Positions 8,605-30,285 of a stretch of 64,000 nt of DNA are shown piece after piece. Location of the stretch: assembly GCF_025813715.1 (NCBI RefSeq), contig NZ_CP107532.1, positions 4,798,501 through 4,862,500 of the forward strand, read 5' to 3'. The DNA is from Methylobacterium sp. FF17 (lineage in GTDB: Bacteria > Pseudomonadota > Alphaproteobacteria > Rhizobiales > Beijerinckiaceae). Position numbers and translations under genes: made by a program. Under the pieces are notes generated by a model that saw only the letters and a list, made by a program, of their open reading frames with translations, had not been told where the DNA came from and made no database searches. Every line of letters starts with the position of its first letter. The stretch's first letter is position 1.

Positions 8605-8984
8605 ATGGATTTACGACAAATCTCAGCTCGAATGATGGCTACCGATGTCTGCGATCGTTGCATTTCCGCGTTCCCGCGAACGTCCGTAAATGGGGCGATT
8701 CCTGTCATTACGTGCAGGCTCTCGCGTCGTTCTAACTCCGATTATGCGGCAGTCCGTTGGCCTCGACATCCATGGTCCACGTAACGCTGTCGGTAATTTG
8801 GTCTGTAAATATGCCTGCTCAGCGGCAAGCAGTAAATTCTGTAGAAGCGTCATTCGCTCCGGGGAACGTGCTGGACCATCTCGGGCGTTATCGGCGAGTT
8901 CAGTATCGCCGGTGCGCCAATGGGCGGCGTCTACGTCGCCATCGCGCGGAGTATCGCGCCACAGCGCAGAATCGGCGGGGCTGG
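8605..8984. other. Intergenic region downstream of the tRNA, no gene seen
   Basis: This is the chromosomal side of the left attachment junction. I find no convincing coding frame. Confidence 0.4.
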
Positions 8985-9071
8985 CGGAAGGGGTGGGATT
9001 CGAACCCACGGTGGAGTTGCCCCCACGGCGGTTTTCAAGACCGCTGCCTTAAACCACTCGGCCACCCTTCC
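8985..9071 (-). tRNA. tRNA-Ser (anticodon UGA)
   Basis: Read on the minus strand it begins GGAAGGG and closes with CCCTTCC plus a G discriminator. The anticodon stem GCGGT/ACCGC holds the loop CTTGAAA, so the anticodon is TGA. The variable arm is long, as in serine tRNAs, and the T arm contains GGTTCGAATCC. The 5' 39 bases lie inside the left 49-bp repeat of the integrative element, so the part beyond the 5' end (right of 9081) is element DNA. CCA is not encoded. Confidence 0.97.
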
Positions 9072-9081
9072 AAGCCCTTGC
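9033..9081. repeat. Left attachment site (49-bp direct repeat, tRNA copy)
   Basis: Identical over 49 bases to 30126-30174. It covers the anticodon loop and the whole 5' half of tRNA-Ser plus 10 bases beyond its 5' end. With the adjacent integrase this identifies it as an attachment core. Confidence 0.93.
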
Positions 9082-9127
9082 AGAAGCTTAAGAATTTGCC
9101 TCTGCCGAAGCACCGGGAAACGGCCCG

Positions 9128-9149: not shown

Positions 9150-10307
9150 TCAACCGGCAACCCTGTCTATGGCCGCCCGCATGGCGGCGTCAACCTTCGC
9201 GGCGGCGTCCTCCTGCATCCCCGGCATCACGTGGGAGTACAGATCGAGGGTGATGCCGATGCTCGAGTGACCAAGGCGCTCTTGCGCTATTTTGGGATGG
9301 ATGCCGCTCGAGAGCAGCTGTGTCGCATGGCTGTGCCTAAGGTCGTGGAAGCGGATGCGTGGCAGGGAGCTCGACTGAGCCAGGATGCGCGTGAACTCGT
9401 GGGTCAGGCTGTTGGGCTGCACCGGCATCCCGTCCGCCTGTGCGAAGACATGATCGTCATCCGTCAGACGGACGCCAAGCTTCAGAAGCTCCTCGGCTTG
9501 CCGGACGCGCTGACGGCGAAGCTCTTCGACGACAATCGTGGGAAGGGCGACCCGTCGGGCTCTCCCACTCTTCGTCTCTTTCGCCCGGGTACCGCCATGC
9601 GTCTGCTCGGTGCTCTCGACGATCGCGAGCTGCCCGGCAGCGAAGTCAACAGCTCTCCATCGCAGCGCGGTCACCTCACCGCGGCGCAAGCCACAGAGTG
9701 CGCCCAGCAGGACTGGCGTGAACATCCGCGTCTGCCGGAAGTGGGCAAGCAACTGGGCTGTCTCATGGGTATCCAGTGCCCGCATCTTCGTTTTCTCGAC
9801 CTTGGGCCCTCCGACCACATCGGCAGGATTGCGAGCCAGGACCCGCCACTTCACGGCTTGGCTGAGCGCCTGACGCAGGATGCGGTGCATGTGGTGGACG
9901 GTACGGGGCGAGAGACCACCAGAACCATCGCGCCGGCCCCTCACGAGAGCTTTGGAGTACGCGGCCGAAATCTGCTCCGGGCGCAGTTTCGCGAGGACCA
10001 CGCTGCCGAGGAGAGGGACGACGTTTTTCCGAGCCAGCTCGGTGTAGCGCTCGTGGCTGCGCGGGGAGACCTGCGAACGCATGTGGTCGAGCCACCGGTC
10101 GAGGAACTTGGCCAGGGTCTCTTTGCCGGGCTCAACGTAGTCGCCGCCCTGCATCTCGGTGATAAGGCGGGCGCACTCCTTCTGCGCCTCACGCTTCGTG
10201 CCGGTAAACGAGTGCCACTTCCGCCTGCGCTTCCCTCCCTCGGGATCAGGGGCATCAAGAATGATAGCCCAGCGGCCTGGAGAGCGCTCACGGATGTGGC
10301 CTTTCAT
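9150..10307 (-). CDS. int: Phage-type tyrosine integrase
   Basis: 385 residues. The N-terminal arm-binding region is AP2-like (KGHIRERSPGRWAIILDAPD), a core-binding SAM-like domain follows at about 60-165, and the catalytic domain at about 185-370. Catalytic residues are visible: Arg in CGLRRGEVTALRW, HDLRHSHA (His and Arg), LGHSS (His), and the nucleophilic Tyr in TLDLYSHV. It should integrate and excise the element at tRNA-Ser. Its start overlaps the stop of the upstream RHH gene by 4 bases (ATGA), implying translational coupling. The C-terminus lies about 70 bases from the attachment core. Confidence 0.95.
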   Translation of the reverse strand: MKGHIRERSPGRWAIILDAPDPEGGKRRRKWHSFTGTKREAQKECARLITEMQGGDYVEPGKETLAKFLDRWLDHMRSQVSPRSHERYTELARKNVVPLLGSVVLAKLRPEQISAAYSKALVRGRRDGSGGLSPRTVHHMHRILRQALSQAVKWRVLARNPADVVGGPKVEKTKMRALDTHETAQLLAHFRQTRMFTPVLLGALCGLRRGEVTALRWRAVDFAAGQLAIVESTEQTHGGTRAKETKSGRARRVALPTIVVEELRRQRVRQAEELLKLGVRLTDDDHVFAQADGMPVQPNSLTHEFTRILAQSSSLPRIRFHDLRHSHATQLLSSGIHPKIAQERLGHSSIGITLDLYSHVMPGMQEDAAAKVDAAMRAAIDRVAG

Positions 10308-11754: not shown

Positions 11755-11981
11755 GCGACCTCCGCACCATCGCCACTGTCCGCAAGAACAACTCGGAGGA
11801 GATCCGGGTCAGCGTCGCCATCCATGATGGATATGCCCTCGTCGATATGCGGGTGTTCTCGGCGCCCCGGGCCAGCCGCGGCGAGCCCGTGCCGACCAAG
11901 GCCGGCATCTGCGTCGCCCGCTCGAAGCTGCCCGAGCTCATCCTGGCCCTACAGGCTGCCGAGCGCGAGGTGACGCGATGA
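11751..11981 (+). CDS. PC4/p15-like single-stranded DNA-binding protein
   Basis: 76 residues. The pattern IATVRKNNSEEIRVSVAIHDGYALVDMRVF, followed by PTKAGICVARSKLPELILALQAAE, is that of the PC4 transcriptional coactivator fold, which binds single-stranded DNA as a dimer. Immediately before a DnaB helicase it may act in element replication. It is linked to both neighbours by 4-base overlaps. Confidence 0.75.
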   Translation: MSDLRTIATVRKNNSEEIRVSVAIHDGYALVDMRVFSAPRASRGEPVPTKAGICVARSKLPELILALQAAEREVTR

Positions 11982-13387
11982 CGGGCTCCGCCATGGCTAC
12001 CGACCTGGTGCCTCCGAACGCCTTCGACAGCGAGCAGGCGCTGCTCGGCGCCATCATCCACAATAACGATGCCCTGGACCGCGCCAGGGACCACGTGCAG
12101 CCCGGCGACTTCTTCGAGCCGCTGCACCGGCACATCTTCGAGGTGATGATCCAGCGTCGGGATGCCGGCGAGGCCATCGACTTCGGGCTGATGAAGGCCG
12201 TGCTCGGCAACGCGGATCTCGGCGGGTTCACCGTCGGCGGCTATCTCGCCAAGTTGGTGTCGGAGGCCATCACCGTCAGTGGCGCCGCCAGCTACGCCCG
12301 GCTGATCGCCCAGGCCGCTCGCATGCGGCGGGTGCTGGAGACCTCGCAAGCGGCCATCGCAGCCATGACGGCTGGATCGGTGCACAGCCCGACCGAGTAC
12401 GCCGCCTACATGATTGAGGCGCTGGACGAGGTCGCCAGTGCTGGACTTAGCGAGAGCGCCCGGCGTGTTACGCTCGGCCAGGGTGTCGCCAGCGTGCTCG
12501 CCCGGGTGGATCAGACCCGACTCGGCAAGGGCATCCTCGGCGTCCCCTACGGCGTGCCGAAGCTCGACACCTCGACCCTCGGCATGCGGCCCGGCCAGTT
12601 CGTCGTGCTCGCCGGCCGGCCCGCGATGGGCAAGACCACGGTGGCCATCCACATCGCCCTCACGGCCGCGCGCCGCAGTGGCGCGGTCGGTCTGATCTCG
12701 CTGGAGATGAACGCCGAGGAGTTGGCCGAACGGGTGCTCTCGGCCTTGGCCTACAATCCGCGGGAATGGGACCAGATCACCTACCGGGCCATCGCCGAGG
12801 CGCGAGGCCTGTCTGAGGCGGCCATGGCCCGACTGCGTGAGGCGACGGAAGCCTGCGCCGACATCCCCCTTTGGATCGAGCAGCAGCCCGGCCTGACCCT
12901 GTCGCAGATCTCGGCCCGGGCCCGGCAGATGAAGCTGAAGGCTGAGCGCCAGGGCATCCTCTTCGCGGCCCTCATCATCGACCACATCGGCCTCATCCGC
13001 CCATCCAAGCGCTACTCTGGCAACCGGGTGCAGGAGATGACCGAGATCAGCTCTGGCCTGAAGGGGCTGGCAAAGGAGCTCGGCATCCCGGTGCTCGGCC
13101 TCAGTCAGCTCAACCGCGAGGTGGAGAAGCGCCAGGACAAGCGCCCGATCCTCTCCGACCTGCGCGAAAGCGGGTCGATCGAGCAGGACGCCGACGTGGT
13201 GCTCGGGCTGTACCGGGACGCCTACTACCTCGAGCACAAGGCAGACCGCACCGACGTCGAGGAGGACCGCCTCGCCCGCTGCCTGAACACCCTGGAGATC
13301 GAGATCCTGAAGCAACGCTCCGGGCCGACGATCCGGATCGAGTGCTTCTGCGACGTCGCCTGCAACGTGTTGGCGGAGGCACGCTGA
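11978..13387 (+). CDS. dnaB: Replicative DNA helicase, DnaB type
   Basis: 469 residues, close to the usual DnaB length. The N-terminal primase-interacting domain starts at PPNAFDSEQALLGAIIHNNDAL; the RecA-like domain has Walker A GRPAMGKTTVAIHIAL, Walker B ALIIDHIGLI, and the late motifs LGLSQLNREVEKR and DLRESGSIEQDADVV. It unwinds the fork as a hexamer. An element-encoded copy beside a replisome organiser implies autonomous theta-type replication after excision. The stop overlaps the next start (TGATG). Confidence 0.95.
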   Translation: MTGSAMATDLVPPNAFDSEQALLGAIIHNNDALDRARDHVQPGDFFEPLHRHIFEVMIQRRDAGEAIDFGLMKAVLGNADLGGFTVGGYLAKLVSEAITVSGAASYARLIAQAARMRRVLETSQAAIAAMTAGSVHSPTEYAAYMIEALDEVASAGLSESARRVTLGQGVASVLARVDQTRLGKGILGVPYGVPKLDTSTLGMRPGQFVVLAGRPAMGKTTVAIHIALTAARRSGAVGLISLEMNAEELAERVLSALAYNPREWDQITYRAIAEARGLSEAAMARLREATEACADIPLWIEQQPGLTLSQISARARQMKLKAERQGILFAALIIDHIGLIRPSKRYSGNRVQEMTEISSGLKGLAKELGIPVLGLSQLNREVEKRQDKRPILSDLRESGSIEQDADVVLGLYRDAYYLEHKADRTDVEEDRLARCLNTLEIEILKQRSGPTIRIECFCDVACNVLAEAR

Positions 13388-14334
13388 TGGTCGGCTTCTA
13401 CAAGCACGACATCCCGGCCTGGATGGATGGCACGGAAGCGCTCAGCGATGGCGCATACCGCACCTATCACGTCATCGTTCAACTCATCATGCTCAACGAG
13501 GGGCCGATCGCCCTGAATGAGCGCGGTATCGCCGGCCGGTGTAACCAGGCCATCAAATCCTTCCGGGTGCATCTGGACGCACTCCTGAAGGCTGGAAAGC
13601 TCACTCTGAGCGATGGTCGCCTGTCGAACTCACGCGCTGCGGCCGAGCTTCAGGCGGTCATGAAGAACCGTGAGAACGCAGGGAAAGGCGGTTCATCCCT
13701 GAAAAAATCAGCCCAAAACTCGGCTGAGCAGGCTGTGAGCGGTGCATCACGAGCGGATGAACCCTCTATCGACCCTGATAAGCCATTGAAAAACAACGAT
13801 AGAGGGGGAGCGTCGCTTGATAAGATATCAAGCCTAAAAGAGAAGAGAAGAGAAGACTCCCCTATAGTCCCCAAGGGGACGGATCGGTTCGAGGAGTTCA
13901 GGGCAGCCTATCCGCCGAGGAACGTGCGTTTCCAGGCGACCCCTGCCCGAAAGCGATGGCTAGAAGCGCTGAAGCGCGGCGCAGATCCCGAGCAGATCAT
14001 CGCTGGTGCCAAAGGCTACGCCGCCGAGCAGGGTCGGATCGGCAAAACGGGCACCGAGTTCGTCAAAACGGCCGAGGTCTGGCTGCGAAATCAACTGTGG
14101 AACGACTACCAGCCCGAACCGAGCGCTGCCGAAGGGAAGCTGGCCAGTCCGGACAGCTACCTCTCGAGTCTGTCCGACGACGACTGGCGCGGCCACCTCC
14201 GCCGCTGGCGCAGCACTGGCGGGCAGTGGACCCTAGCCAATCGCACCAAGCCGCCGGACGATCCAGGGACGAAGGTGCCGGCGCACCTGCTGGCTGAGTT
14301 GGGCGACGTGACCCTCCTGGCGAGGGCCAGCTGA
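13387..14334 (+). CDS. DUF1376 (YdaU)-type replisome organiser / helicase loader
   Basis: 315 residues. The N-terminal winged-helix domain (GFYKHDIPAWMDGTEALSDGAYRTYHVIVQ) is the DUF1376 type of phage replication proteins. A low-complexity, AT-richer linker occupies about residues 95-165, followed by a small C-terminal domain (AAYPPRNVRFQATPARKRWLEALKRGADPEQIIAGAKGYAAEQ) typical of proteins that recruit DnaB. The order helicase-organiser and the linker sequence suggest that the origin may be inside this gene. Confidence 0.8.
   Translation: MVGFYKHDIPAWMDGTEALSDGAYRTYHVIVQLIMLNEGPIALNERGIAGRCNQAIKSFRVHLDALLKAGKLTLSDGRLSNSRAAAELQAVMKNRENAGKGGSSLKKSAQNSAEQAVSGASRADEPSIDPDKPLKNNDRGGASLDKISSLKEKRREDSPIVPKGTDRFEEFRAAYPPRNVRFQATPARKRWLEALKRGADPEQIIAGAKGYAAEQGRIGKTGTEFVKTAEVWLRNQLWNDYQPEPSAAEGKLASPDSYLSSLSDDDWRGHLRRWRSTGGQWTLANRTKPPDDPGTKVPAHLLAELGDVTLLARAS
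13816..13832. repeat. Palindrome in the AT-rich linker of the replisome organiser gene
   Basis: CTTGATA-AGA-TATCAAG, a perfect 7-base inverted repeat with a 3-base centre, inside the least GC-rich stretch (about 13680-13870) of the gene. A purine tract with repeated AGAAG follows. Candidate origin element. Confidence 0.4.
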
Positions 14335-14738
14335 TGATGAGCCCTGACTTCTCAGGCTTGCGCCACCGGTTCAATTTTCAGCCCAACAGGATCAATGGCT
14401 TAGCCAAATTCTTGGAAGCCGCTCTCCTAAGGCCCTGCGAATTTCCGACCCAATCGGATCAATGGGTTAGCGGAAATCTTACCGCTCCCCGTTTTCGGGC
14501 ATCGGCGATTTGCGCTCCCCAGTCCGGGGGAGCACACCGATTGATCCACCCGGTGCGGGGTTTCAACCGGATCGGGTGGAAACCTCCGGTTCGACAGGTT
14601 TCCGCCGAACCTGGCGTAAACCCCCAGGTGAGGCTGCCGGCATCAGAACGCAAAATTGCGTCGTGCAAATCCAAAGAGTTAGCGGGCTTCGGCCTGCCCA
14701 TGGACCAGCCTTGCAATATAGGGTTCAGCCATGAGTAA
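14334..14738 (+). CDS. Doubtful reading frame over a repeat-bearing region
   Basis: 134 codons starting in a TGATGATGA overlap with the previous gene and ending 8 bases into the next. Composition is unconvincing and no motif is present. The DNA repeats beneath it fall in different frames, so the interval may be regulatory rather than coding. Confidence 0.25.
   Translation: MMSPDFSGLRHRFNFQPNRINGLAKFLEAALLRPCEFPTQSDQWVSGNLTAPRFRASAICAPQSGGAHRLIHPVRGFNRIGWKPPVRQVSAEPGVNPQVRLPASERKIASCKSKELAGFGLPMDQPCNIGFSHE
14382..14477. repeat. Two imperfect ~29-base direct repeats
   Basis: 14382-14410 and 14449-14477 share CCCAA, GGATCAATGG and TTAGC in register. A further inverted GATTGATCC lies near 14540. 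Spacing between starts is 67 bases. They lie just after the replication genes and could be iterons or operator sites. Confidence 0.5.
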
Positions 14739-15198
14739 GCGCGCTTTGGATCGCGACCGCTTCGCGAAATGTCGAGCGCTGATGGACCGCGGCGCCACTG
14801 CAGGCGAGCAGGCCGCTGGGGAAGCTGCAGCCGCCCGAGTCGCAGCCGCAGCCGGTTTAAGCCTGGCTGAGGCCATCAGCCTGGTGGATGCCGCGGACCG
14901 ACGATTCCATTCTGATGCCGCCTCTCAGGACGAACGTGCCCGTCGCCCACAAGCTCGCCCAACTTATGCCTGGGCCGAACCGAAGCAGAAGCCCCACCCC
15001 ATCACCGTTGAGGAGTTGCTGAGGCAAAAAGAGGCCGACGCCGCTCAGAAGAAGGCTGCCGCTGCGCGTCAGGCTAAGCGCGCTCCGAAGGGGGACAAGG
15101 ACTTTGATCGCTGGGCCGAAGAGGCTCGTGAGGCGCAGGCTATGCGGGATCGTGAGTGGGCTGAACGGCGTAAGCAGCGCGAGGAGGCGCAGCCATGA
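14731..15198 (+). CDS. Coiled-coil hypothetical protein
   Basis: 155 residues, very Ala/Glu/Lys/Arg-rich, predicted mostly helical. The start (FAKCRALMDRGATAGEQAAGEAAAARVAAAAGL) recalls the DUF2786 helical hairpin of phage proteins; the C-terminal half is a charged coiled coil. Last gene of the rightward early operon before three leftward genes. No function assigned. Confidence 0.65.
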   Translation: MSKRALDRDRFAKCRALMDRGATAGEQAAGEAAAARVAAAAGLSLAEAISLVDAADRRFHSDAASQDERARRPQARPTYAWAEPKQKPHPITVEELLRQKEADAAQKKAAAARQAKRAPKGDKDFDRWAEEAREAQAMRDREWAERRKQREEAQP

Positions 15199-15250
15199 CT
15201 GCCGCTGAGATCAAGGCTCTGCCCATAGCCAGCGCAGGCAGCCACTCCGA

Positions 15251-15469
15251 TCAGGGTTCGCTTACAGCCTTTTCGGCTTCGACGCTGTCCAGCAGTTCCT
15301 CGGCGCTCATCCAGAGCACACCGGACTCGGAGTGGATGGCGTGCGCGATCAGGCCCATGCCGATCTTCGTCTTGGCGGCGTCGAGTGCCTTCTCAGAGCT
15401 ATCGTGCTCCTCGTGGTTCCAATGTCCCCTCACCTGGTTGGTGCTGTCGCCCCATTCCAAGATCCACAT
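15251..15469 (-). CDS. Small hypothetical protein
   Basis: 72 residues with a strong GAGGAGGG ribosome site before the ATG at 15469. Starts MWILEWGDSTNQVRGHW and has an acidic C-terminus (AEELLDSVEAEKA). No signal peptide or recognised family. First of three short leftward genes (15251-16269), each with a good ribosome site, on the strand opposite to the flanking operons. Confidence 0.65.
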   Translation of the reverse strand: MWILEWGDSTNQVRGHWNHEEHDSSEKALDAAKTKIGMGLIAHAIHSESGVLWMSAEELLDSVEAEKAVSEP

Positions 15470-15604
15470 CGCGCCCTCCTCTTCCGAAAGAGAAGCGGCG
15501 GGCGCGCCAATCCGGTTCCATGAGTTCCTTGCAACGCCCCTGGCGAAGGCTCGGCAGGACATACCCATTCGAAAGTGGGGCGCTCCAAAGCGCCCCAACT
15601 CGGT

Positions 15605-15859
15605 TTACGAAGCTTTGAGCTCAATCAGCTTCCGACCGATGTTGTACAAGCGCTTGTCGTCTTCATGGGCGCATCGCGTGAAGTTTGCGATTTTGTGGTT
15701 GTCTCGCTGGCCCATCTTAAAGGCTTCGATGACGTGCATCATTTCTTTGGCGTCCCCTTTGCTGAATGCTTCCTTCAGCTCAGTGCGACCCTTCACGTCT
15801 TCGCCTTGGTTCAGGCTCCAGTCCAAGTCCTCTTTAACTGATTTCCAGTTTGCGGACAT
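15605..15859 (-). CDS. Small hypothetical charged protein
   Basis: 84 residues with GGGAGGG upstream of the ATG at 15859. Strongly charged and helical (VKEDLDWSLNQGEDVKGRTELKEAFSKGDAKEMMHVIEAFK, ending IGRKLIELKAS). No family recognised. The composition, less GC-rich than neighbours, suggests recent transfer. Confidence 0.65.
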   Translation of the reverse strand: MSANWKSVKEDLDWSLNQGEDVKGRTELKEAFSKGDAKEMMHVIEAFKMGQRDNHKIANFTRCAHEDDKRLYNIGRKLIELKAS

Positions 15860-16044
15860 GTTTCCCTCCCTTGCCCCATGCGGGACGGACATGAGGATAC
15901 GCCGCTTTCTACTCCCGTCGAGCCATCGAGTGCTCGGTGAGCAATCGCCAGGCAAATGGCTTATGGCAAAAGCGGGCCTTTTCAGCGCAGCCTCGATCCA
16001 TCCGGCTTACGGCTAGTCAGCGGCCTACCAAACCTAGCGGATGC

Positions 16045-16269
16045 TCAGCATCGTTCTCTGCTCTTAGATTTCAGGTGCTGTTGGACCTTACTGATCACCG
16101 AGCCGGGGTCGTGCCCCCGGTCCTTTGCGAGCAGCAGCAGGTCGGTCATGAGGTCGACGACATCACATGGCGGAGCAGAGTCTCCCCATCTGCGGGCTGC
16201 TCCTTCGGCGTGAAGGTATGCGTCAAGGGCAATTTGAGCGAGTTCGGCTCGCCGATAAAGCTTAGCCAT
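16045..16269 (-). CDS. Small hypothetical protein
   Basis: 74 residues with GAGGAG before the ATG at 16269. Mostly helical (YRRAELAQIALDAYLHAEGAARRW, then VVDLMTDLLLLAKDRGHD). No recognised motif. Divergent from the rightward operon that begins at 16636. Confidence 0.6.
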   Translation of the reverse strand: MAKLYRRAELAQIALDAYLHAEGAARRWGDSAPPCDVVDLMTDLLLLAKDRGHDPGSVISKVQQHLKSKSRERC

Positions 16270-16635
16270 GGGCGTTCTCCTCGACCGCCCGGCCATGATT
16301 ATTCTAGCCGGTTCGGCCATTTGCTAGTCATCAACTTACCAAACGCTCCAATGTTGTCGACTGCCGTTTATCCCTGGGCATTAGGTAACAAATGATACGC
16401 AGCTAGCTGGTCTAAACAGTACGTCGAGTAGCCTGCATAGGAGAGGCCGGGTCGCCCGCTGTCACAGGCAGGGCAGCGGCGCCCGTGGATGTCAGACCCA
16501 TTGGCGCCGTACTCATGCACGCACAGTGGGGCGGGCCCAAGTCGCTTTCGTATTTGCGAGAGCGCGGAATGTGACCAGGCAAGCGCGGAATGCGACCAGG
16601 TGACTGAGCCCTGAGCGACCGGCACCATCTCGGAC
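16270..16635. other. Divergent intergenic region
   Basis: Separates the leftward small genes from the rightward late-type operon. It holds the tandem 19-base repeat at 16561-16600 immediately upstream of the RHH-like gene. No other coding frame is convincing. Confidence 0.5.
16561..16600. promoter_or_regulatory. Two 19-base direct repeats with 21-base period
   Basis: AGCGCGGAATGTGACCAGG at 16561-16579 and the same with one change at 16582-16600. The period is two helical turns, so both copies face the same side of the DNA, as operators do. The pair ends about 35 bases before the RHH-like gene. Confidence 0.55.
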
Positions 16636-16854
16636 ATGAACTCCGAGATCACCCTTCTCGACCGCATCAACGTGGCCGTCACCAGCGACATCGCTGAGGC
16701 GGTTCGTCAGACCGCAGCGGCTCGCGGCCTCACCGTAGCCGACTATGTCCGCGGGTCTGTGCAGGCCCGACTGATGCTCGACGGGGCTCGCTTCAATCGC
16801 CTTCCGAACCTTCAGCGCCTCGCCACCCGCACGAGCCGCTTCCGCACGCTCTGA
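16636..16854 (+). CDS. Small ribbon-helix-helix-like protein
   Basis: 72 residues. INVAVTSDIAEAVRQTAAARGLTVADYVRGSVQARLM fits a CopG/MetJ-like ribbon-helix-helix: one strand and two helices. It heads the rightward operon and is preceded by the repeated 19-base element, which it may bind. Confidence 0.6.
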   Translation: MNSEITLLDRINVAVTSDIAEAVRQTAAARGLTVADYVRGSVQARLMLDGARFNRLPNLQRLATRTSRFRTL

Positions 16855-16866
16855 TCGGAAACCACC

Positions 16867-17901
16867 ATGCCGAAATCCAAGCCCGTCACCCAGAGCACCA
16901 TCGAGGACCAGCTCACAGGCCTCATCACCACCCGCACCAGCCTACAGGCCCGTCAGGCTGCCCTGGCTGCCGATGTCGAGAAGGCCGTCACCGTCCGTCG
17001 CAAGCTGCTGATCGAGGATGGTGACTCCGCGGCCGTCGCCGAGGCCGAGCGCGCCTGTCGCGAGATCGAGGGCACGGCCTACGGCATCAGCGATGCCCTC
17101 GCCGAGATCGAGCGCCGCATCAGCGAGACGGAAGCCCGGATCGAGGCGGCCCGGGTGGACGCCGAGCGGGAGCGTGTTGTCGGCGGCCTGGAGCAGAATG
17201 CCAGCGACATCGAGGTGGCTACCGCCAATCTGGCCAAGGCCCTGGCCGCTGTCGCCAAGGCGCACAGCATGCTCGCGATCACCATCAGTGGTGCGGCGGC
17301 GGGCCAGTTCGATCCCGCATACGGCACAGCCAGCCCGGTCGACATCGCCAACGCCCTCGTCCTGCAGGGCCTCGTCCATGCCCTGCCTGGCCTGGAGGTC
17401 CACGCCGAGATCAATCCCTGGTCGCTCTACAGCATGCGCCAGCCTGTCGAGGGTACGGACCCAGCCGCGACGGCTGCTGCCTTCGGCCAGCGCCTCCGCG
17501 AGGTCGCCGATCAGATCCGCAGACAGGAGATCGGCCAGGATCTGCCGGTCCACCACGATGCTCTGCCTGACTTCAGCCCGGCCAACGACGAGGTGCTGAT
17601 CTTCGTGATCTCTCCCTTCCAGTACATCGGCGCCGACCGCGTTCAGACGATGGTGACCTCCCCGAGCACGCACCTCCCAGTCCCGGTTGCCGAGCGTGCG
17701 ATCGAGTTGGGCGTCGCCTCGGACCACCAGTCGCGCGAATGGAAGGCCGCCCACCAAGATGCCGGCCTCCACGCGTCCGTCCGTGGAAGCGTCGGCTGGG
17801 AAGACTGCGTCGACATTGAGTTCGATCTGGCGGCTTGGCGGCGAGCCGAGACCGAGCGTCAGCGCGGCGCCTGGCTCACCGACCAGCGTCAAGCCGCCTG
17901 A
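16867..17901 (+). CDS. Hypothetical phage protein with N-terminal coiled coil
   Basis: 344 residues. Residues 1-125 form a long heptad-rich coiled coil (EIEGTAYGISDALAEIERRISETEARIEAARVDAE). The C-terminal 200 residues are globular with strands (DEVLIFVISPFQYIGADRVQTMVTSP) and no recognised motif. Its position before a terminase-small-like gene suggests a structural or packaging role, but this is not shown by the sequence. Confidence 0.6.
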   Translation: MPKSKPVTQSTIEDQLTGLITTRTSLQARQAALAADVEKAVTVRRKLLIEDGDSAAVAEAERACREIEGTAYGISDALAEIERRISETEARIEAARVDAERERVVGGLEQNASDIEVATANLAKALAAVAKAHSMLAITISGAAAGQFDPAYGTASPVDIANALVLQGLVHALPGLEVHAEINPWSLYSMRQPVEGTDPAATAAAFGQRLREVADQIRRQEIGQDLPVHHDALPDFSPANDEVLIFVISPFQYIGADRVQTMVTSPSTHLPVPVAERAIELGVASDHQSREWKAAHQDAGLHASVRGSVGWEDCVDIEFDLAAWRRAETERQRGAWLTDQRQAA

Positions 17902-18012
17902 TCCGAGATCGCCGGGAGTTCTTCTCCTTCGCCCGGCGTAGGCACCCGCGGCAGGCGCGTGGCTCAGGCCATGGCCGCGGGTGCCACCCTTCACCGAGTA
18001 CGGGATCTGCAG

Positions 18013-18381
18013 ATGCCCATCCGCACCGAAACCGAGTACCGCAGCGCTCTCTCCCGCCTCGACGGCGAGAAGACCATCATGCGCAGCCGATCTTTCACCG
18101 ATGACGAGCAGCGGGACTTCGATGCCCTGACGGCCGAGATCGCGGCCTACGAGAAGGGTCGCTCCCCCTCGTCCAGCGGTGCGCCATCGACCCTGCTGCC
18201 GCCCAGGTCCCCCATGCCCCAGGCGTCGGCATCTCATCCCATCGACCCGAGTGCCAGCATGCGCCGCGAGCTCGAGCGCCAGGGCTTGGCCCAGCAGCAG
18301 GCCGGCACCGCCTCCATGTCGACGATGAGCATGCAGCGTGAGCTCAAGCGGGCGGGCCTGACCCCGGCAGACCAAGGTTGA
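18013..18381 (+). CDS. Protein with HigA-like N-terminal segment and short C-terminal repeats
   Basis: 122 residues from the ATG at 18013. The beginning (MPIRTETEYRSALSRLD, then DFDALTAEIAAYEKG) resembles the N-terminal helices of HigA-type antitoxins, but the helix-turn-helix that should follow is absent. Instead the C-terminus has a Pro/Ser-rich linker and two copies of an RREL-x-R-x-GL-like motif (SMRRELERQGLAQ and SMQRELKRAGLTP). No toxin neighbour is seen. Function unknown. Confidence 0.5.
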   Translation: MPIRTETEYRSALSRLDGEKTIMRSRSFTDDEQRDFDALTAEIAAYEKGRSPSSSGAPSTLLPPRSPMPQASASHPIDPSASMRRELERQGLAQQQAGTASMSTMSMQRELKRAGLTPADQG

Positions 18382-18506
18382 GCCGCCCCTGACCAGACCG
18401 TCAGGGACCCTGGGAGGCCAAAACCTATATGGGTGGTCGGGGCCCCCAAACTTCCTAGCGCCAGGGTTCGAAACTCACTTAACACCTCAGGGGCAGCAGA
18501 TCGGCC
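18382..18506. other. Short leader before the terminase-small-like gene
   Basis: 125 bases without a gene. Contains GACCAGACCGTCAGGGACCCTGGG and TGGTCGGGGCCCCC, short GC dyads that could fold, and then the GTG start at 18507. Confidence 0.35.
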
Positions 18507-19121
18507 GTGACCATCACAACTAAGGCTGCACTTGCCGACGAGCTCGGCGTAACTCGCGCCCGCGTCTCGCAATACGTGAAGGCGGGCCTGCCTGTACGCT
18601 CAGACGGTAAACTTGAGCGCGATGAAGCCCTTAACTGGCTTAACCGGAATGTGGTCGGACTTAACAGGGAGCAGGACCGGGGAGTTAACCGGGCCGCTCG
18701 CCTCGCGAAGCCGACGAAGGCCAAGCCAAAGTCCCCGCCAGAGCCCGAGCCCTTCGCGCCCGAAGACCTCGTGCGGGCCATCGTCGTGGCGATGATCCAC
18801 CGGATGGACGCTGTGACCGCCTTCGCAGTGATCGCCGCCGGGGGCAGCGCCGAGACCGCCTACGCCGCCGCCAGCATCGCCCGCTCCGAGATGATGCAGG
18901 CCGGCGGCGACGTGGCGATGGCCTGGGGAGTGCCCGATGGGTTCGACGGCCCGCTCGGGCAGGTCGAGGCTACGCCGTTCCCGCCGAACTGGCCTGCCCT
19001 TGCCGCGATAGCAGGTGAACCGCCCGACCTTGGTCAGTGGCGCGAGGCGGAAACTCGCCGCCCGTACTGGCAAGACCCAGAGCCAGCCGAACCGCCCCAC
19101 CCCTGGGACGTCACCCCTTAG
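18507..19121 (+). CDS. HTH protein resembling a phage terminase small subunit
   Basis: 204 residues from a GTG. The N-terminal helix-turn-helix (TKAALADELGVTRARVSQYVKAGLPVRSDGKLERDEALNWLNRNV) is of the Nu1/terminase-small type that binds the packaging site. A Pro/Lys linker and a C-terminal domain of unknown type follow. A large terminase would be expected next but is not present; a tail assembly-like gene follows instead. It could alternatively be a stand-alone regulator. Confidence 0.6.
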   Translation: MTITTKAALADELGVTRARVSQYVKAGLPVRSDGKLERDEALNWLNRNVVGLNREQDRGVNRAARLAKPTKAKPKSPPEPEPFAPEDLVRAIVVAMIHRMDAVTAFAVIAAGGSAETAYAAASIARSEMMQAGGDVAMAWGVPDGFDGPLGQVEATPFPPNWPALAAIAGEPPDLGQWREAETRRPYWQDPEPAEPPHPWDVTP

Positions 19122-19147
19122 CCCCTCACCGCACGAACGGATCACCC

Positions 19148-19510
19148 ATGCTGAAGCTGACCCCGACCCCGACTGAACCGACGTGGCTCGACCTCCTGCC
19201 GGGGGTGCGGGTGCGCTTGAAGCCGCCCACGGTCCTGACGATCCTGGCGGCGCGCGATGCCGCCACTGAGGTTTACCGGGCCGATCTCCTGAAAGACGCC
19301 GCCGACCGCGACCCCGACGTCATCGTTCACGCGACCATCGCCATGGTGACATCGTACGCGCGCCGGCGGATCGAAGGCTGGGAGGGCGTAGGCGACGATG
19401 CGGGCGAAGCCATCCCCGTGACGCCCGAGAACGTGGACGCGGCCATGGACCTGCACCCGTTCTACGAGGCCTTCGACCGCCTCGTGCTCGCCCCGGCCAT
19501 GGCCGCCTGA
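19148..19510 (+). CDS. Phage tail assembly chaperone-like protein
   Basis: 120 residues from the ATG at 19148. PGVRVRLKPPTVLTILAARDAATEVYR, followed by a helical region, is like the small acidic tail assembly proteins that immediately precede tape-measure genes in siphophages. Assignment relies mostly on gene order (26 bases before the tape measure). No frameshift-generated second product is obvious. Confidence 0.55.
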   Translation: MLKLTPTPTEPTWLDLLPGVRVRLKPPTVLTILAARDAATEVYRADLLKDAADRDPDVIVHATIAMVTSYARRRIEGWEGVGDDAGEAIPVTPENVDAAMDLHPFYEAFDRLVLAPAMAA

Positions 19511-19535
19511 CCTCAGCCGCGCAGGAGGCGCCACC

Positions 19536-22349
19536 ATGCCCACGAACATAGCCATCCGTCTCGGCGTCGAGGGCGGCGCCAGCCTGAAGCGCGAACTCGA
19601 GGAGGCCGGCCGCTCCGGCGAGCAGGCGTTCAAGGGAGTCGGGGCCGCAGCAGAGGCGGCCGCCGCAGCAGCCGACAAGCTGGCGAAGAAGGCCGGCGAG
19701 GCAGGAGACGCAGCACGCCGGGTACCGGGTGCGTCCGGCGGCTCTCCGGCGCCCGCGGCACCCTCAACCCCGTACCCAGCGCCGAGCCCGACCACGGCGC
19801 GCGAGGTCGAGCGCCTGCGGGTTCAGCTGGACGAGGAGTACCGGCGGACGAAGCAACTCGGGACCGCCGAGGTCCGGATCGGCCGCGGAGTGTCCGGCGG
19901 CTACTTCGATGCGGCCGAGGGCGAGCGCCTTCGATCCCTGGCAGCAGCGAAGTACGCGGCGGGCGGCACGAACGACAACGATCCCTCCCGCCGCGGCCTC
20001 TCCAGCTACGACAAGCAGTTCGTGCGCTACCAGGGCTTCGACGTTGCCAGCACCCTCGGGTCCGGCGGATCTCTGACCACGGCCGCTTTCCAGCAGGGCC
20101 CGCAGCTCCTGCAACAGCTTGCCGACCGGGAAGGCGGTCTTGGCGCCGGCCTGAAGCAGCTCGGGGTCAGCGCCCTTGGTCTCGTCACCCCCATCACGGT
20201 GGCAACCACGGCGGTGGGCGGCATGGCCGCGGCGCTGGCCTATGCGGCGATCCAGGCTGGCAAGGACCGGGACGTGCTGGAGAAGGCCACGAAAGGGATC
20301 GGGGCGGCCACTGGTGCCACGATCTCGCAGCTGGACGACCTTGCCCGCGCCAACATGGAGGGCGGCAAGATCTCGGGCTCCACGGCCCGCGAGTACGTGG
20401 CGGCCTACGCCTCCCTCGGCAGCCTCGCCCTCCCGGTGATCGGCGATCTAACCCGCCTCACAGCGGACTACGCCCGGGTGACGGGCCAGGAGGGTGCGGC
20501 GGCGGCAACCGAACTTGGACGGGCGGTCGCTGAGGGCGGTACGGCCCTCGACGGCGTAGCGGCCAAGATCGGCGGCCTCGATGACCGGACCCGGCAGCTC
20601 ATCCAGACCCAGATCGAACAGGGTGATCGCTCTGGAGCGCAGGCCACGGCGGCCGAGTACCTGAAGAGCACGATCGACGCGAACACCGCCGCGACGACCG
20701 GATGGGCCGGCGCCTGGAACGCTGCTACCGCCGCGGCGAACGGCTACTGGGAGGCCGCCAAGCGCATCGCTGGCATCAAGCTCGGCATCGTGCCGGAGGG
20801 CGCGGCCGAGGCGGTGGCACGGCTTCAGGCTTCGGTGGATGCCACGAACCGGACGCGTCAGGCGATGGGCATGGACCCGCTGAACGGCGCGAACAGTGAG
20901 CAGGCCCGGCAGCTGGCCACCGCGAAGGTCATCGCCGACCAGGACCGCATGATTGCCGAGGGCAAGGCTGCCGAGGAGCGGGCTACCAAGGCATCCACGG
21001 CGGCCGGCAACGTCGCTCGGGCAGTCGACCCCAACTTCGCCCGCCTCTCGCAGCTCCGGGAGCAGCAGAACGCCCTGCGCGACGCTCTGGCGGACCCGCT
21101 GGCCCGCTCGAAGCTCTCCGACACCTCGCAGGTGGAGGACGCCTACACCGCGACCACCCGCGCCATCACGACGATGACCGATGCCACCGGTAAGGCAATC
21201 TCGGCCGAAGAGATGGCCAGGCGCTCCGACCAGCTCCGGATCGATGGCCTGAACGCCAAGACGGCAGCCGAGAAAGCGGCCTTGGCCGAGCGCCAGAAAG
21301 CCTTCGACCTCATCGGGAAGATGGTCACCCCGAGCGATGCCCGCGGGCAGATTGACCGGGCATCCTTCCTGGCGCGTGCCGAGACCGATGCGAAGGGCGG
21401 CGGCAGCAAGGGTGCGAGCGGCGAGAAGCTGGACGAATACGATCGAGCCACCCGATCCCTGGAAGACCGCATTCGCCGGCAGGCCGAGGAGGCGACGACC
21501 TTCGGCCAGGGCGCACAGGAGATTGCCCGGTACCGCGCGGAGCAGGATCTCCTCGCCGCTGCCAAACGGGCCGACCGGGACGTGACGTCCGACCTCACGG
21601 CGCAGATCAAGGACTATGCCGATCGGGCCGGCGAGGCTGCGAAGCGCAACGAGGAGCTGCGGGACAGTCTGCGCACCGTGGACAGCGTGCGCAGCGCCGG
21701 GTCCGACAGCATCCGCAGTATCGTCACCGACCTGCAGAAGGGCACCAGCGCCACCAACCTCCTGACCAACGCGACCTCCCGGCTCGCAACGGCCTTCGGG
21801 AACATGGCCTCCGACCAGATCGCAGAGGCCTTCCTGGGCAAGCGTGGGTCCGCCGGGTGGCTCTCGGACTTCCTGAAGCCGTCGACCACCGGGAGCACTG
21901 AGTCCGGTGGCATCGCGGGCTTCCTGGCCTCGGCCAAGAGCTTCTTCGGGTTCGCGGACGGCGGGTACACAGGGGCGGGCATGCGCCTCGAGCCGGCCGG
22001 CATCGTCCACCGCGGCGAGTACGTCATCGACCGGACATCGGTGGACCGGATCGGCATCGGCACCCTGGACGCGATGCGCAAGGGTGCCCATGGATATGCC
22101 GATGGCGGCTACGTCCGGCCCGCCCCAGTCTCCCGCGCCGCCTTCGGCACCCCGGCATCAGCCGACGCGATGCCGAGCGTCGTCATCAACAACAACGGCG
22201 CCCCAGTGCAGGTCCAGTCCGCTCAGATGACTACCGACGGCCAGGGCAACCGGCGCCTGGAAATGACGCTCGGCGACATGGTGGCGACAGGAGCCAAGAC
22301 CCCTCAGGGCCGGCAGGCAGTTGGTCGCCAGAAAATCGTCTCGACCTGA
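19536..22349 (+). CDS. Phage tail tape measure protein
   Basis: 937 residues. Ala-rich coiled coil at the N-terminus, a hydrophobic alpha-helical segment near 195-235 (GVSALGLVTPITVATTAVGGMAAALAYAAI), a long helical middle, and a C-terminal Gly-rich module (GFADGGYTGAG, GIVHRGEYVIDRTSVDRIG, GYADGGYVRP) that is characteristic of tape-measure proteins. It sets tail length and is carried in the tail lumen. Finding it without baseplate, tail tube or capsid genes is unusual. Confidence 0.88.
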   Translation: MPTNIAIRLGVEGGASLKRELEEAGRSGEQAFKGVGAAAEAAAAAADKLAKKAGEAGDAARRVPGASGGSPAPAAPSTPYPAPSPTTAREVERLRVQLDEEYRRTKQLGTAEVRIGRGVSGGYFDAAEGERLRSLAAAKYAAGGTNDNDPSRRGLSSYDKQFVRYQGFDVASTLGSGGSLTTAAFQQGPQLLQQLADREGGLGAGLKQLGVSALGLVTPITVATTAVGGMAAALAYAAIQAGKDRDVLEKATKGIGAATGATISQLDDLARANMEGGKISGSTAREYVAAYASLGSLALPVIGDLTRLTADYARVTGQEGAAAATELGRAVAEGGTALDGVAAKIGGLDDRTRQLIQTQIEQGDRSGAQATAAEYLKSTIDANTAATTGWAGAWNAATAAANGYWEAAKRIAGIKLGIVPEGAAEAVARLQASVDATNRTRQAMGMDPLNGANSEQARQLATAKVIADQDRMIAEGKAAEERATKASTAAGNVARAVDPNFARLSQLREQQNALRDALADPLARSKLSDTSQVEDAYTATTRAITTMTDATGKAISAEEMARRSDQLRIDGLNAKTAAEKAALAERQKAFDLIGKMVTPSDARGQIDRASFLARAETDAKGGGSKGASGEKLDEYDRATRSLEDRIRRQAEEATTFGQGAQEIARYRAEQDLLAAAKRADRDVTSDLTAQIKDYADRAGEAAKRNEELRDSLRTVDSVRSAGSDSIRSIVTDLQKGTSATNLLTNATSRLATAFGNMASDQIAEAFLGKRGSAGWLSDFLKPSTTGSTESGGIAGFLASAKSFFGFADGGYTGAGMRLEPAGIVHRGEYVIDRTSVDRIGIGTLDAMRKGAHGYADGGYVRPAPVSRAAFGTPASADAMPSVVINNNGAPVQVQSAQMTTDGQGNRRLEMTLGDMVATGAKTPQGRQAVGRQKIVST

Positions 22350-22673
22350 CCGACAACGACCTTGAGGCAGATAGCTAACGCTCCTGCGCCGGTAGAGCGT
22401 CCCGGAGCATAGGATCGGCGCGTACGGGCTCGCCTACATGGTCGCGGTCATAGACCGGACGGCGGAGATCGCAACCGACCTAAATCGTCATAACGACGAA
22501 CGTCAGGCCGTATGATACCGCACTACGCTTGCGCAACCGGAGGCGGCCACATGACTACGCATCGTACGGTCGCCCCAAAGCGGCACGTGTGCCATCTGGG
22601 TTCTCTCAGGACCCAGAAAGCACATTCAGTTAGGAAAAACTCGTTGTGCGATCTAGAAGGTTCTAAAGTACGA
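22350..22673. other. Leader of the HD/nucleotidyltransferase operon
   Basis: 324 bases between the tape measure and the HD gene. Contains the hairpin at 22595-22617 and the near-palindrome TAGAAGGTTCTA (22652-22663). The frame open from 22512 has unlikely composition, so I treat it as untranslated. GC content falls sharply here. Confidence 0.5.
22595..22617. promoter_or_regulatory. Hairpin upstream of the HD gene
   Basis: TCTGGGTTC and GGACCCAGA pair fully as RNA with one G-U, around the loop TCTCA. There is no long T-run after it on either strand, so it may be an operator, attenuator or RNA structure rather than a simple terminator. Confidence 0.5.
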
Positions 22674-23765
22674 ATGGCGAACTTGAGTCAGAGGGGCGGG
22701 CATTCGTTTTACGATTTCGTTGAACCTCTTGATCCGGGGACCGGTATCATGGGCGATGGCCTGTACGCAGAACTGGCAAAAACCTCAGCCTTCCAGCGGC
22801 TTAAGCAGGTCAGGTTTCTGGGTGGCATCGACTATATCTTGGTTCCTGCTCCAAATGGGTCGAAGAGCAGGTACACCAGATTTCAGCACAGTCTGGGGGT
22901 TGCCCGCTTAGCGCTCCTCTATGCTCGCCAAAGAGAGATAAGCTACCAAGACCGCCGCACCCTGTACGTAGCAGCGATGCTGCATGACATCGGGCACGCG
23001 CCACTTTCTCACTCTCTGGAACCAACGTTTCTAAAGCACTTTGGTATCGAACATCATAAAGCGACGAGCGATATTATAGCTGGTCGCGTTGATATTGGAA
23101 TAGATGTTTATCAAGTCCTGCGGTGGCATGGAATCAACGTCGAGCAAGTAATTGCCCTCATATCGGGTGAGGACAGCAGCTTCGATGGACTGTTTTCTGG
23201 CCCGATAAACTTTGACACTATTGAAGGAATTCTGCGTTCGCACTCTTACGCGACGGCGTCAGCAACTGTTTACGGTCCCGAAGCGATTACGCGAGCCGCA
23301 ATCTATAGGGATGACCCGAAGTCTAGAGAGCTGATTGATACATTTTGGCACTATAAAAATCTTATGTACAAGACAGTCATCAACTCAGAGTCTGGAATTC
23401 TGGCCGACTTTATATGTCAGAAGTTCATGGAGATGAACATCAGGCATTTTTCTGAGAAGGACTACTATACGACTGAGGACTCGGCTTTTAGAAAAATGCC
23501 TGGCCTCAGAGAGTTGCTCACAAGTAAAAACTTTATGTATATATCTCGTTCATATGCGAACGAACCTATCAACTACCGAGCGCGAAGCTTTTTCATTGAT
23601 CAAAGCATCCCGTTTAAGTCTGAAATGGATGCGTTGCGGTATCAGCAGTCAAAAGAGCAAAAATCGCTCTTGCCGCATTCCGCAACTCAGGTAGGTATCT
23701 TCGGACCAGGCTGGGACCTCCTTAATGAGCACACCTTACGAGCGCAGCAAACTCTTTTCCGATGA
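22674..23765 (+). CDS. HD-domain phosphohydrolase (dGTPase/SAMHD1-like)
   Basis: 363 residues from the ATG at 22674, which starts the conserved part; the ribosome site (AGAAGG, about 15 bases away) is weak. The pattern FQRLKQVRFLGGIDYILVP, then RYTRFQHSLGVARL (His72), MLHDIGHAPLSHSLE (His104-Asp105 plus His108/His113) and later GPINFDTIEGILRS (distal Asp) is that of the SAMHD1/YwfO branch of HD metal-dependent nucleotide hydrolases. Substrates in this branch include dNTPs, cyclic or modified nucleotides; which applies here is unknown. It overlaps the nucleotidyltransferase gene by 41 bases. AT-rich codon use contrasts with the tape-measure gene and indicates separate acquisition. Confidence 0.85.
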   Translation: MANLSQRGGHSFYDFVEPLDPGTGIMGDGLYAELAKTSAFQRLKQVRFLGGIDYILVPAPNGSKSRYTRFQHSLGVARLALLYARQREISYQDRRTLYVAAMLHDIGHAPLSHSLEPTFLKHFGIEHHKATSDIIAGRVDIGIDVYQVLRWHGINVEQVIALISGEDSSFDGLFSGPINFDTIEGILRSHSYATASATVYGPEAITRAAIYRDDPKSRELIDTFWHYKNLMYKTVINSESGILADFICQKFMEMNIRHFSEKDYYTTEDSAFRKMPGLRELLTSKNFMYISRSYANEPINYRARSFFIDQSIPFKSEMDALRYQQSKEQKSLLPHSATQVGIFGPGWDLLNEHTLRAQQTLFR

Positions 23766-24663
23766 GAAGCTTACTGCACTCCGGGAAGGTCTAGGTAATC
23801 TCGTTCCAGCCGGCGAGGCTGTGGTTACTTGTGGTTCTTATGCTAGACGTGAAGCATCTGAAAACTCAGATCTTGATTATTTTATCATTACTCAATGTTC
23901 AGAGGGCGCGTCAGATCACTCGTGGGGTGATAAGGTCAGAGATGTCATTAGTAGCTTGGTAAAAACTGAGCCGGCTGCTGGAGGAGCCTTTTCCGGCATA
24001 ATCCATAGAGCTTCTATGACAAAGGATATTGGTGGAGACGGCGACGACAATGCCCACTTCACCCGCAGAATGCTCTTCTTGCTGGAGGGCGCTTATTTAG
24101 CGAATGAGGCCGAAATTCGCAGCTTTCGCAGGGAAATACTGGAAAGATATATTGGTGAAAAAATAACTAACCCGCAGATTGCCTTATTTCTTCTGAATGA
24201 TGTGATCCGCTACTATAGAACTATGGCCGTTGACTATGAGTTCAAAACGGTCGAGGGCACGAAGCCGAAGCCCTGGGGACTCAGGAACATCAAGCTCGTT
24301 TTTTCACGTAAACTGCTTTACGCGAGCGGTCTGTTCAGCGTTGCAATGACAGTGGATCGAACAAGAGACAAGAAGATCGAGACGCTGGAAAAGTTATTTG
24401 ACATGCCGGTAATCGATCGAATGCAGTACATTTGCGGCAAGAGCGCCATGGAAAACGTTCTGGAGCGCTACAATGTGTTTCTTGAAAGGCTTGAAGATCA
24501 CGATGTTCGCAGTAAATTGACTGCTCTGACTAGAGATGAGCGTAGCGATAAGTTATTTAGAGAAATAAAAAACGAAGGCCACCTGTTTACTCGTGACTTA
24601 CTTAAGCTTTTCGACAACAGCTTCGATTCAACGCATCCCATCAGAAAAGCTGTCTTATTCTGA
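23725..24663 (+). CDS. Nucleotidyltransferase (Pol beta superfamily, MNT/CD-NTase-like)
   Basis: 312 residues. The catalytic signature TCGSYARREASENSDLDYFII provides Gly37-Ser38 and the Asp49-x-Asp51 metal-binding pair. A conserved-looking region (DNAHFTRRMLFLLEGAYLANEAEI) and a helical C-terminal half (NPQIALFLLNDVIRYYRTMAVDYEFKT, LVFSRKLLYASGLF) follow. It should transfer a nucleotide to a protein, RNA or small molecule. Partnered with an HD hydrolase through a 41-base gene overlap, it may form a synthesis/degradation or toxin/antitoxin-like couple. I do not recognise this exact pair as a named system. AT-rich like its partner. Confidence 0.85.
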   Translation: MSTPYERSKLFSDEKLTALREGLGNLVPAGEAVVTCGSYARREASENSDLDYFIITQCSEGASDHSWGDKVRDVISSLVKTEPAAGGAFSGIIHRASMTKDIGGDGDDNAHFTRRMLFLLEGAYLANEAEIRSFRREILERYIGEKITNPQIALFLLNDVIRYYRTMAVDYEFKTVEGTKPKPWGLRNIKLVFSRKLLYASGLFSVAMTVDRTRDKKIETLEKLFDMPVIDRMQYICGKSAMENVLERYNVFLERLEDHDVRSKLTALTRDERSDKLFREIKNEGHLFTRDLLKLFDNSFDSTHPIRKAVLF

Positions 24664-30096: not shown

Positions 30097-30125
30097 TGGG
30101 ATTGTGCAGGATGGCCGGGAGCGAA

Positions 30126-30174
30126 TTTCAAGACCGCTGCCTTAAACCACTCGGCCACCCTTCCAAGCCCTTGC
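30126..30174. repeat. Right attachment site (49-bp direct repeat)
   Basis: Identical to 9033-9081. It contains only the 5' half of the tRNA and no functional tRNA. Confidence 0.93.
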
Positions 30175-30285
30175 GGACGCGAGGGACGTTCCCTCCGCCG
30201 AAGCACCGGGCGGTGCTGCCGATGTGTCGCTCGATCGACCGGCGACCTTGTCTATGGCCGGGTGCCGGGCGGCGTCAACCGCCGG
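30175..30285 (-). pseudogene. Relic of an older integrase C-terminus
   Basis: Reading leftward, the residues AVDAARHPAIDKVAG correspond to KVDAAMRAAIDRVAG at the end of the present integrase. The following non-coding bases also match (CCGGTGCTTCGGC and the flank up to the repeat). The stop codon is changed (TGA to CGA) and the arm-type sites are decayed. The rest of this integrase is gone. Confidence 0.75.

Follow-up and report, generated by a model that had tools for sequence, protein, structure and literature searches.

A putative SAMHD1-type hydrolase and nucleotidyltransferase gene pair in a Methylobacterium prophage remnant is a candidate Clover-like anti-phage module

A 64,000-nucleotide stretch of Methylobacterium sp. 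FF17 (contig NZ_CP107532.1, positions 4,798,501 to 4,862,500 of the forward strand), here called the window, carries two overlapping genes which encode an HD-domain protein and a Pol-beta-type nucleotidyltransferase (NTase). We consider it probable that the two form an anti-phage module resembling Clover, the NTase restraining a SAMHD1-type deoxynucleoside triphosphate (dNTP) triphosphohydrolase, or dNTPase, until phage infection. This reading builds on the genes themselves, their overlap, conserved order and co-occurrence, their invariant catalytic residues, the predicted folds and the mobile setting, all of which were observed. Clover is a dNTPase-NTase anti-phage operon described in a 2025 preprint (PMC12265719). 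Residues were compared across a set of 37 loci, made up of the window, 28 loci from species genomes, seven from other genomes and one from an E. coli plasmid. The features of the pair are as follows.

22674..23765, + strand: HD-domain protein, putative SAMHD1-type dNTP triphosphohydrolase, 363 amino acids (aa), probable start
23725..24663, + strand: Pol-beta-type NTase, 312 aa, relative of PADLOC PDC-M70A
23725..23765, + strand: overlap of the HD and NTase genes, 41 bp
22983..22988, + strand: HD motif codons H104-D105 (H and D in 37 of 37 loci)
23869..23877, + strand: NTase metal-binding acids, codons D49-L50-D51 (D49 and D51 in 37 of 37 loci)

The HD open reading frame (ORF) spans 22512..23765 (+) and encodes 417 aa when counted from its first ATG. 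An in-frame ATG at 22674 gives a protein of 363 aa, near the usual length of its relatives, and we infer that the gene starts here; HD residue numbers are counted from this codon. The frame is open for the 162 bases 5' of this likely start (22512-22673), and a Methylobacterium relative of the protein, P0122, is likewise longer (404 aa). The two ORFs, their 41-bp overlap, the residue numbers H104/D105 and D49/D51, the HD protein motifs TRFQHSLGV, MLHDIGHAPLSH and FDTIEGILR, and the NTase signature CGSYARREASENSDLDYF had all been given in an original prediction made from the DNA letters, and each was located as claimed. The predicted HD hydrolase and NTase signatures were borne out by domain matches above the curated cut-offs (PF01966 HD, 1.1e-11; PF01909 NTP_transf_2, 6.4e-5) and by matches to the SAMHD1 branch. 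The AT-rich codon use noted there was also confirmed, third-codon-position GC being 0.533 for the HD gene and 0.486 for the NTase gene as against 0.855 for the tape-measure gene.

Linkage and distribution of the pair

The NTase alignment, used to scan species genomes, yielded 29 loci, and in 28 of these the HD gene adjoins the NTase gene; the sole non-adjacent locus, L036, begins at a contig end. The co-occurrence survey suggested in the original prediction thus found that the homologues are not normally apart in the close family. Among the 36 loci with both genes, the window excluded, 35 have them co-directional and one (L030) has them convergent. With NTase starts set by a simple rule, 25 of the 35 co-directional loci have the likely NTase start inside the HD frame (the start at L020 being unsure), while seven have a gap of 100 nt or less and three a longer one. 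This conserved linkage rules out a chance pairing of ORFs.

Within the window's family, 12 of 298 genomes match the NTase model at 1e-10, eight of them at 3.4e-44 or better. The HD profile matches 85 of the same genomes at 1e-5, eight at 5e-76 or better, with the next at 2e-17, and the eight genomes with a close NTase are the same eight that have a close HD protein. At least four of these eight are also among the 29 loci (L009, L020, L025 and L029, with identical match values), and the two counts are not independent. In the class sample an NTase match was found in six of 385 genomes, with the HD gene adjacent in four, the window's genome included, and about 7 kb from the NTase in G267. The phylum sample gave matches at 1e-5 in seven of 398 genomes, namely the window's genome, G267, G708 and G711, which belong to one genus, and three weak partial matches at about 1e-6. 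In G267, G708 and G711 the HD gene lies 0.8 to about 8 kb from the NTase on the same contig, and the unit can hence be split with both genes kept (L004, L084 and L083, respectively; one genus). At each of these three loci a putative adenosylhomocysteinase gene lies near the NTase. In the close family the two genes are almost always linked; no such linkage was seen for distant NTases.

It could be argued that the pair is a metabolic or housekeeping unit of dNTP homeostasis, since both genes are present in three of three genomes of this one genus, where the chromosomal surroundings of the NTase are similar and the HD gene is up to about 8 kb off on the same contig. The original prediction had named a housekeeping role as an outcome that would refute it, and the distribution does not look like one; the close pair is patchy, being present in only eight of the 298 family genomes, and its base composition is atypical and its setting mobile. 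We regard this explanation as highly improbable.

The HD protein matched six phage records (Listeria and Staphylococcus; 27.6-29.2% identity) and 12 plasmid records, none covering more than 80% of the protein. One of the plasmid records is E. coli plasmid NZ_CP092257.1 (4499 bp, from cat faeces; L037), which carries a distant HD and NTase pair of 28-30% identity. This pair fills about 2 of the 4.5 kb, its HD gene spans the start of the record, and a pair of its type was found in one of 5426 complete E. coli genomes.

Conserved residues and proposed mechanism

In the HD protein R69, H72, H104, D105, H108, H113, E116, H128 and D181 are invariant in all 37 loci, as are Y232 and Y323. The NTase retains D107 and E121 as well as D49 and D51 throughout, and the metal-ligand alignment, one of the checks raised by the original prediction, revealed no loss in any of the 37 loci. 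The C-terminal tail of the NTase (window 24631-24663) is unusually conserved, with H304 in 35, P305 in 36, I306 in 33 and F312 in 30 of the 37. Against the PDB, the HD profile matched 2o6i at 1.1e-17 and SAMHD1, the human antiviral dNTPase, at 3.7e-13. By its predicted fold and its metal and catalytic residues the HD protein belongs to the SAMHD1 branch, and by analogy it would have dNTP triphosphohydrolase activity. Among the actions offered in the original prediction, depletion of dNTPs is the most likely one for the effector.

In the mechanism that we propose, the HD effector would cut dNTPs to nucleoside and triphosphate, and the loss of dNTPs would starve phage DNA synthesis, as the analogy with SAMHD1 and CloA, the Clover effector, suggests. 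The NTase, whose start lies within the HD gene, is probably made from the same message, and the product of its two-aspartate site would keep the effector off in healthy cells, as suggested by Clover, Hailong and MNT-HEPN systems. Phage enzymes may raise the dNTP pool, upon which the restraint would be overcome and the effector would fire; the phage is here a presumed trigger, and dTTP as the cue and p3diT as the product in the window's branch are guesses.

Genomic setting

The pair lies within an element of about 21.1 kb bounded by a direct repeat of 87% identity (9028-9117 / 30121-30210), with the following features.

9028..9117: left attachment repeat, overlapping the tRNA-Ser(TGA) gene at 8982-9071 (- strand)
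9150..10307, - strand: tyrosine integrase gene, just inside the left end of the element (PF00589, 7.5e-24)
11978..22349, + strand: phage-type genes 5' of the pair, the tape-measure gene being the last (19536-22349)
30121..30210: right attachment repeat, 87% identical to the left copy

The right repeat contains only part of the tRNA-Ser gene, and ARAGORN reports one tRNA only. The phage-type genes encode a DnaB-like helicase, a replication/primosomal protein, a small-terminase-like protein, a tail assembly chaperone and the tape measure; no portal, capsid or large terminase gene was found among the 19 window ORFs compared with PHROGs, the remaining ORFs not having been compared. We read the element (about 9.03-30.21 kb) as a prophage remnant integrated at tRNA-Ser. 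The pair is its cargo, in a mobile setting, and the repeat at tRNA-Ser together with the integrase agrees with the earlier placing of the two genes in the cargo position of an integrative element.

In relatives, an AbiE pair comes before the M. symbioticum pair and an integrase after it; genes nearby include a type IIG enzyme in the Bradyrhizobium DOA9 locus (L014), a type I restriction enzyme at L025 and, at L018, a helicase which matches DRT and Gabija models. Of ten neighbours chosen by hand, five gave matches to clear defence proteins, two to generic enzymes and three to nothing. The PADLOC and Pfam tallies of neighbours cover 123 of 218 neighbour ORFs (at least 170 aa, at most five per locus), the later loci being shortened.

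This setting bears on the possibility that the two genes serve as a toxin-antitoxin system or to maintain the element, without a selected anti-phage role. The window pair sits inside a prophage remnant, the distant pair accounts for about 2 kb of an E. coli plasmid of only 4.5 kb, and modules of this sort typically have overlapping genes and an effector that is probably toxic. Against this, the studied Clover systems, which have Dgt-type effectors, defend against phage as far as the available text of the preprint describes (PMC12265719), and defence genes (AbiE, type IIG, type I, and the DRT/Gabija-type helicase) are found near some loci, although these were hand-picked and uncontrolled. We hold this explanation to be improbable.

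Comparison with Clover and other systems

According to the available text of the preprint, CloA is a dGTPase activated by dTTP, and p3diT, made by the CloB NTase, restrains it; a system that loses CloB activity becomes toxic, and the studied systems, with Dgt-type effectors, protect against phage (PMC12265719). More than 650 Clover systems are counted there, Nicastro et al. 2023 is cited for the two-gene system, and the legend of Fig. 1a names Methylobacterium symbioticum SB0023/3 as the source of one representative operon. Within that text 'Methylobacterium' appears once, in the figure legend, 'SAMHD1' appears twice, in reference titles, and no test of the Methylobacterium system is reported.

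The M. symbioticum SB0023/3 pair at L009 (contig NZ_CABFPH010000038.1) is 60% (NTase) and 51% (HD) identical to the window pair. A search of this whole genome found PF01909 at six places and PF01966 at 11, and the two within 2 kb of each other at two places: the L009 pair and a single 950-aa frame, which we take for GlnD. A crude motif scan found no NTase within about 3-5 kb of the three Dgt-type genes of M. symbioticum, nor beside the single Dgt-type genes of the window's genome and of Bradyrhizobium DOA9. Since L009 is the sole two-gene HD-NTase pair found in M. symbioticum SB0023/3, the named Clover operon is, by exclusion, of the window pair's family.

Like Clover, as its available text presents it, the family is a two-gene operon of a dNTPase-like HD protein and an NTase (28/29 adjacent, 35/36 co-directional), its effector has the HD motif and an HE dyad, the spacing of H104/D105 and H113/E116 equalling that of H117/D118 and H126/E129 in CloA, and its NTase has the two-aspartate site (D49/D51, 37/37). 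Unlike the solved CloA, which is Dgt-type with a chain of 473 aa, the window effector is SAMHD1-type with 363 aa. Three Dgt-type PDB queries do match the CloA chains 9p8s-9p8v, which are absent from the best 60 of 80 PDB matches of the HD profile, and the window effector is thus of another branch. The same chains are not among the 50 HD fold matches listed, which is no evidence that the folds differ. A Dgt-type effector is a property of the studied CloA proteins; the preprint, in its available text, speaks of dNTPase-NTase systems. A plasmid tblastn search with a dGTPase matched 261 records, and in the 11 inspected out of the 60 listed no NTase was annotated or seen next to a Dgt-type gene; a tblastn search with the E. 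coli plasmid NTase returned four records, in which no CloB was recognised. Beyond the Clover preprint, no title or abstract opening in the literature searched describes such a pair.

Several observations weigh against a Clover-like module. The NTase model is nearest in fold to GlnE and DrrA, both of them protein-modifying enzymes. Position 93, where the third catalytic acid would be expected (model strand 92-94), is acidic in only 13 of the 37 loci; Clover has [D/E]h[D/E]..h[D/E]h, as given in the available text, and in the window's family the third acid is not conserved where it usually stands on the strand. Four of the 12 NTase-positive family genomes carry only a distant NTase (23-31% identity), with no HD match within about 4-5 kb of it, and in the class sample G128 has an NTase of 27% identity with no HD gene nearby. 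Neither the phage collection nor the viral contigs yielded an NTase relative. HD and NTase pairwise distances co-vary over the 37 loci (r = 0.838; 0 of 2000 permutations reach this, the best being 0.348), a value which includes shared ancestry and alone is no proof of interaction. The neighbour survey was uncontrolled, so no enrichment of defence genes is claimed. None of the CloA chains 9p8s-9p8v is among the best 60 of 80 PDB matches of the HD profile, that is, none matches better than about E 0.8, and any homology of the NTase to CloB is putative, the link being indirect, through M. symbioticum SB0023/3.

The fold matches bear on a different chemistry, in which the NTase is a protein nucleotidyltransferase that silences the HD protein by an attached nucleotide, as MntA silences HepT, and makes no free signal. 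The invariant Y232 or Y323 would be candidate sites of modification. We regard this reading as possible but rather unlikely.

Another of the known systems close to the pair is PDC-M70, a PADLOC candidate whose name was not found in the literature searched. The window NTase matches PDC-M70A at 9.2e-54, whereas an NTase beside M70B scores 1.1e-146; the partner there is the TIM-barrel-like PDC-M70B, which the HD protein does not match at E <= 10. Three plasmid loci have an NTase about 30% identical to that of the window next to a different enzyme.

L038, 5022-6727: NTase then PDC-M70B (M70B match 2.2e-105)
L040, 5025-6712: NTase then PDC-M70B (M70B match 2.6e-106)
L039, 4935-6630: NTase then histidine phosphatase

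The two M70B copies are 80% identical; that of L038 matches a xylose-isomerase-like TIM barrel in Pfam, and that of L040 had no Pfam match. From these three loci, partner swap of the NTase is a lead. One could extend it to a single NTase scaffold that serves as an interchangeable restraint for unrelated small-molecule enzymes (the SAMHD1-type dNTPase, the PDC-M70 xylose-isomerase-like TIM barrel and perhaps the histidine phosphatase), here by covalent nucleotidylation of the partner and not by p3diT, which we consider unlikely.

SAMHD1 and the E. faecalis HD protein of 2o6i/3irh/4lrl, which we take to be EF1143, share with the window protein the fold, metal ligands and catalytic histidines; unlike them, the window protein is paired with an NTase. 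E116 presumably stands where SAMHD1 has Asp, and SAMHD1 D137, which we take to be its GTP-site Asp, aligns to a variable position (K36 in the window protein). MntA-HepT is similar in coupling a GSx10DxD NTase to a probably toxic hydrolase, and differs in that the window partner is HD and not HEPN, and in that the window NTase has a large extra helical part. In Hailong, too, an NTase (HalB) may act as a restraint within a defence operon. Membership of MNT-HEPN was rejected, the partner being a PF01966 HD protein and not a HEPN RNase. CBASS was set aside as well, with no CD-NTase family among the domain and defence matches listed and an HD partner; in the Foldseek fold search one CdnE chain appeared at rank 47 (E 0.34). 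GlnD joins NTase and HD, and a GlnD-like uridylyl-removing pair was also rejected, the HD protein belonging to the SAMHD1 branch.

We file the window pair as a Clover-like variant and not as proven Clover. The original prediction of a candidate undescribed system stands as regards a linked cassette whose catalytic residues are intact and whose distribution is patchy and mobile; 'undescribed' is not supported, as the dNTPase-NTase kind was already described in 2025, going by the available text (PMC12265719). What remains new is the effector branch of SAMHD1 type, the question of how the restraint works chemically, and the exchange of partners. If the Clover-like reading is true, a bacterial SAMHD1-type enzyme locked to a dedicated NTase would closely parallel the human enzyme in mechanism, as part of phage defence, and dNTP-depleting immunity would use two HD branches, Dgt and SAMHD1, under one kind of NTase control. 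The pair makes it testable whether an NTase restrains by a free nucleotide or by modification of the effector. Should the covalent partner-swap reading be true, Clover would represent one of the outcomes of a broader NTase-effector family whose chemistry of control differs.
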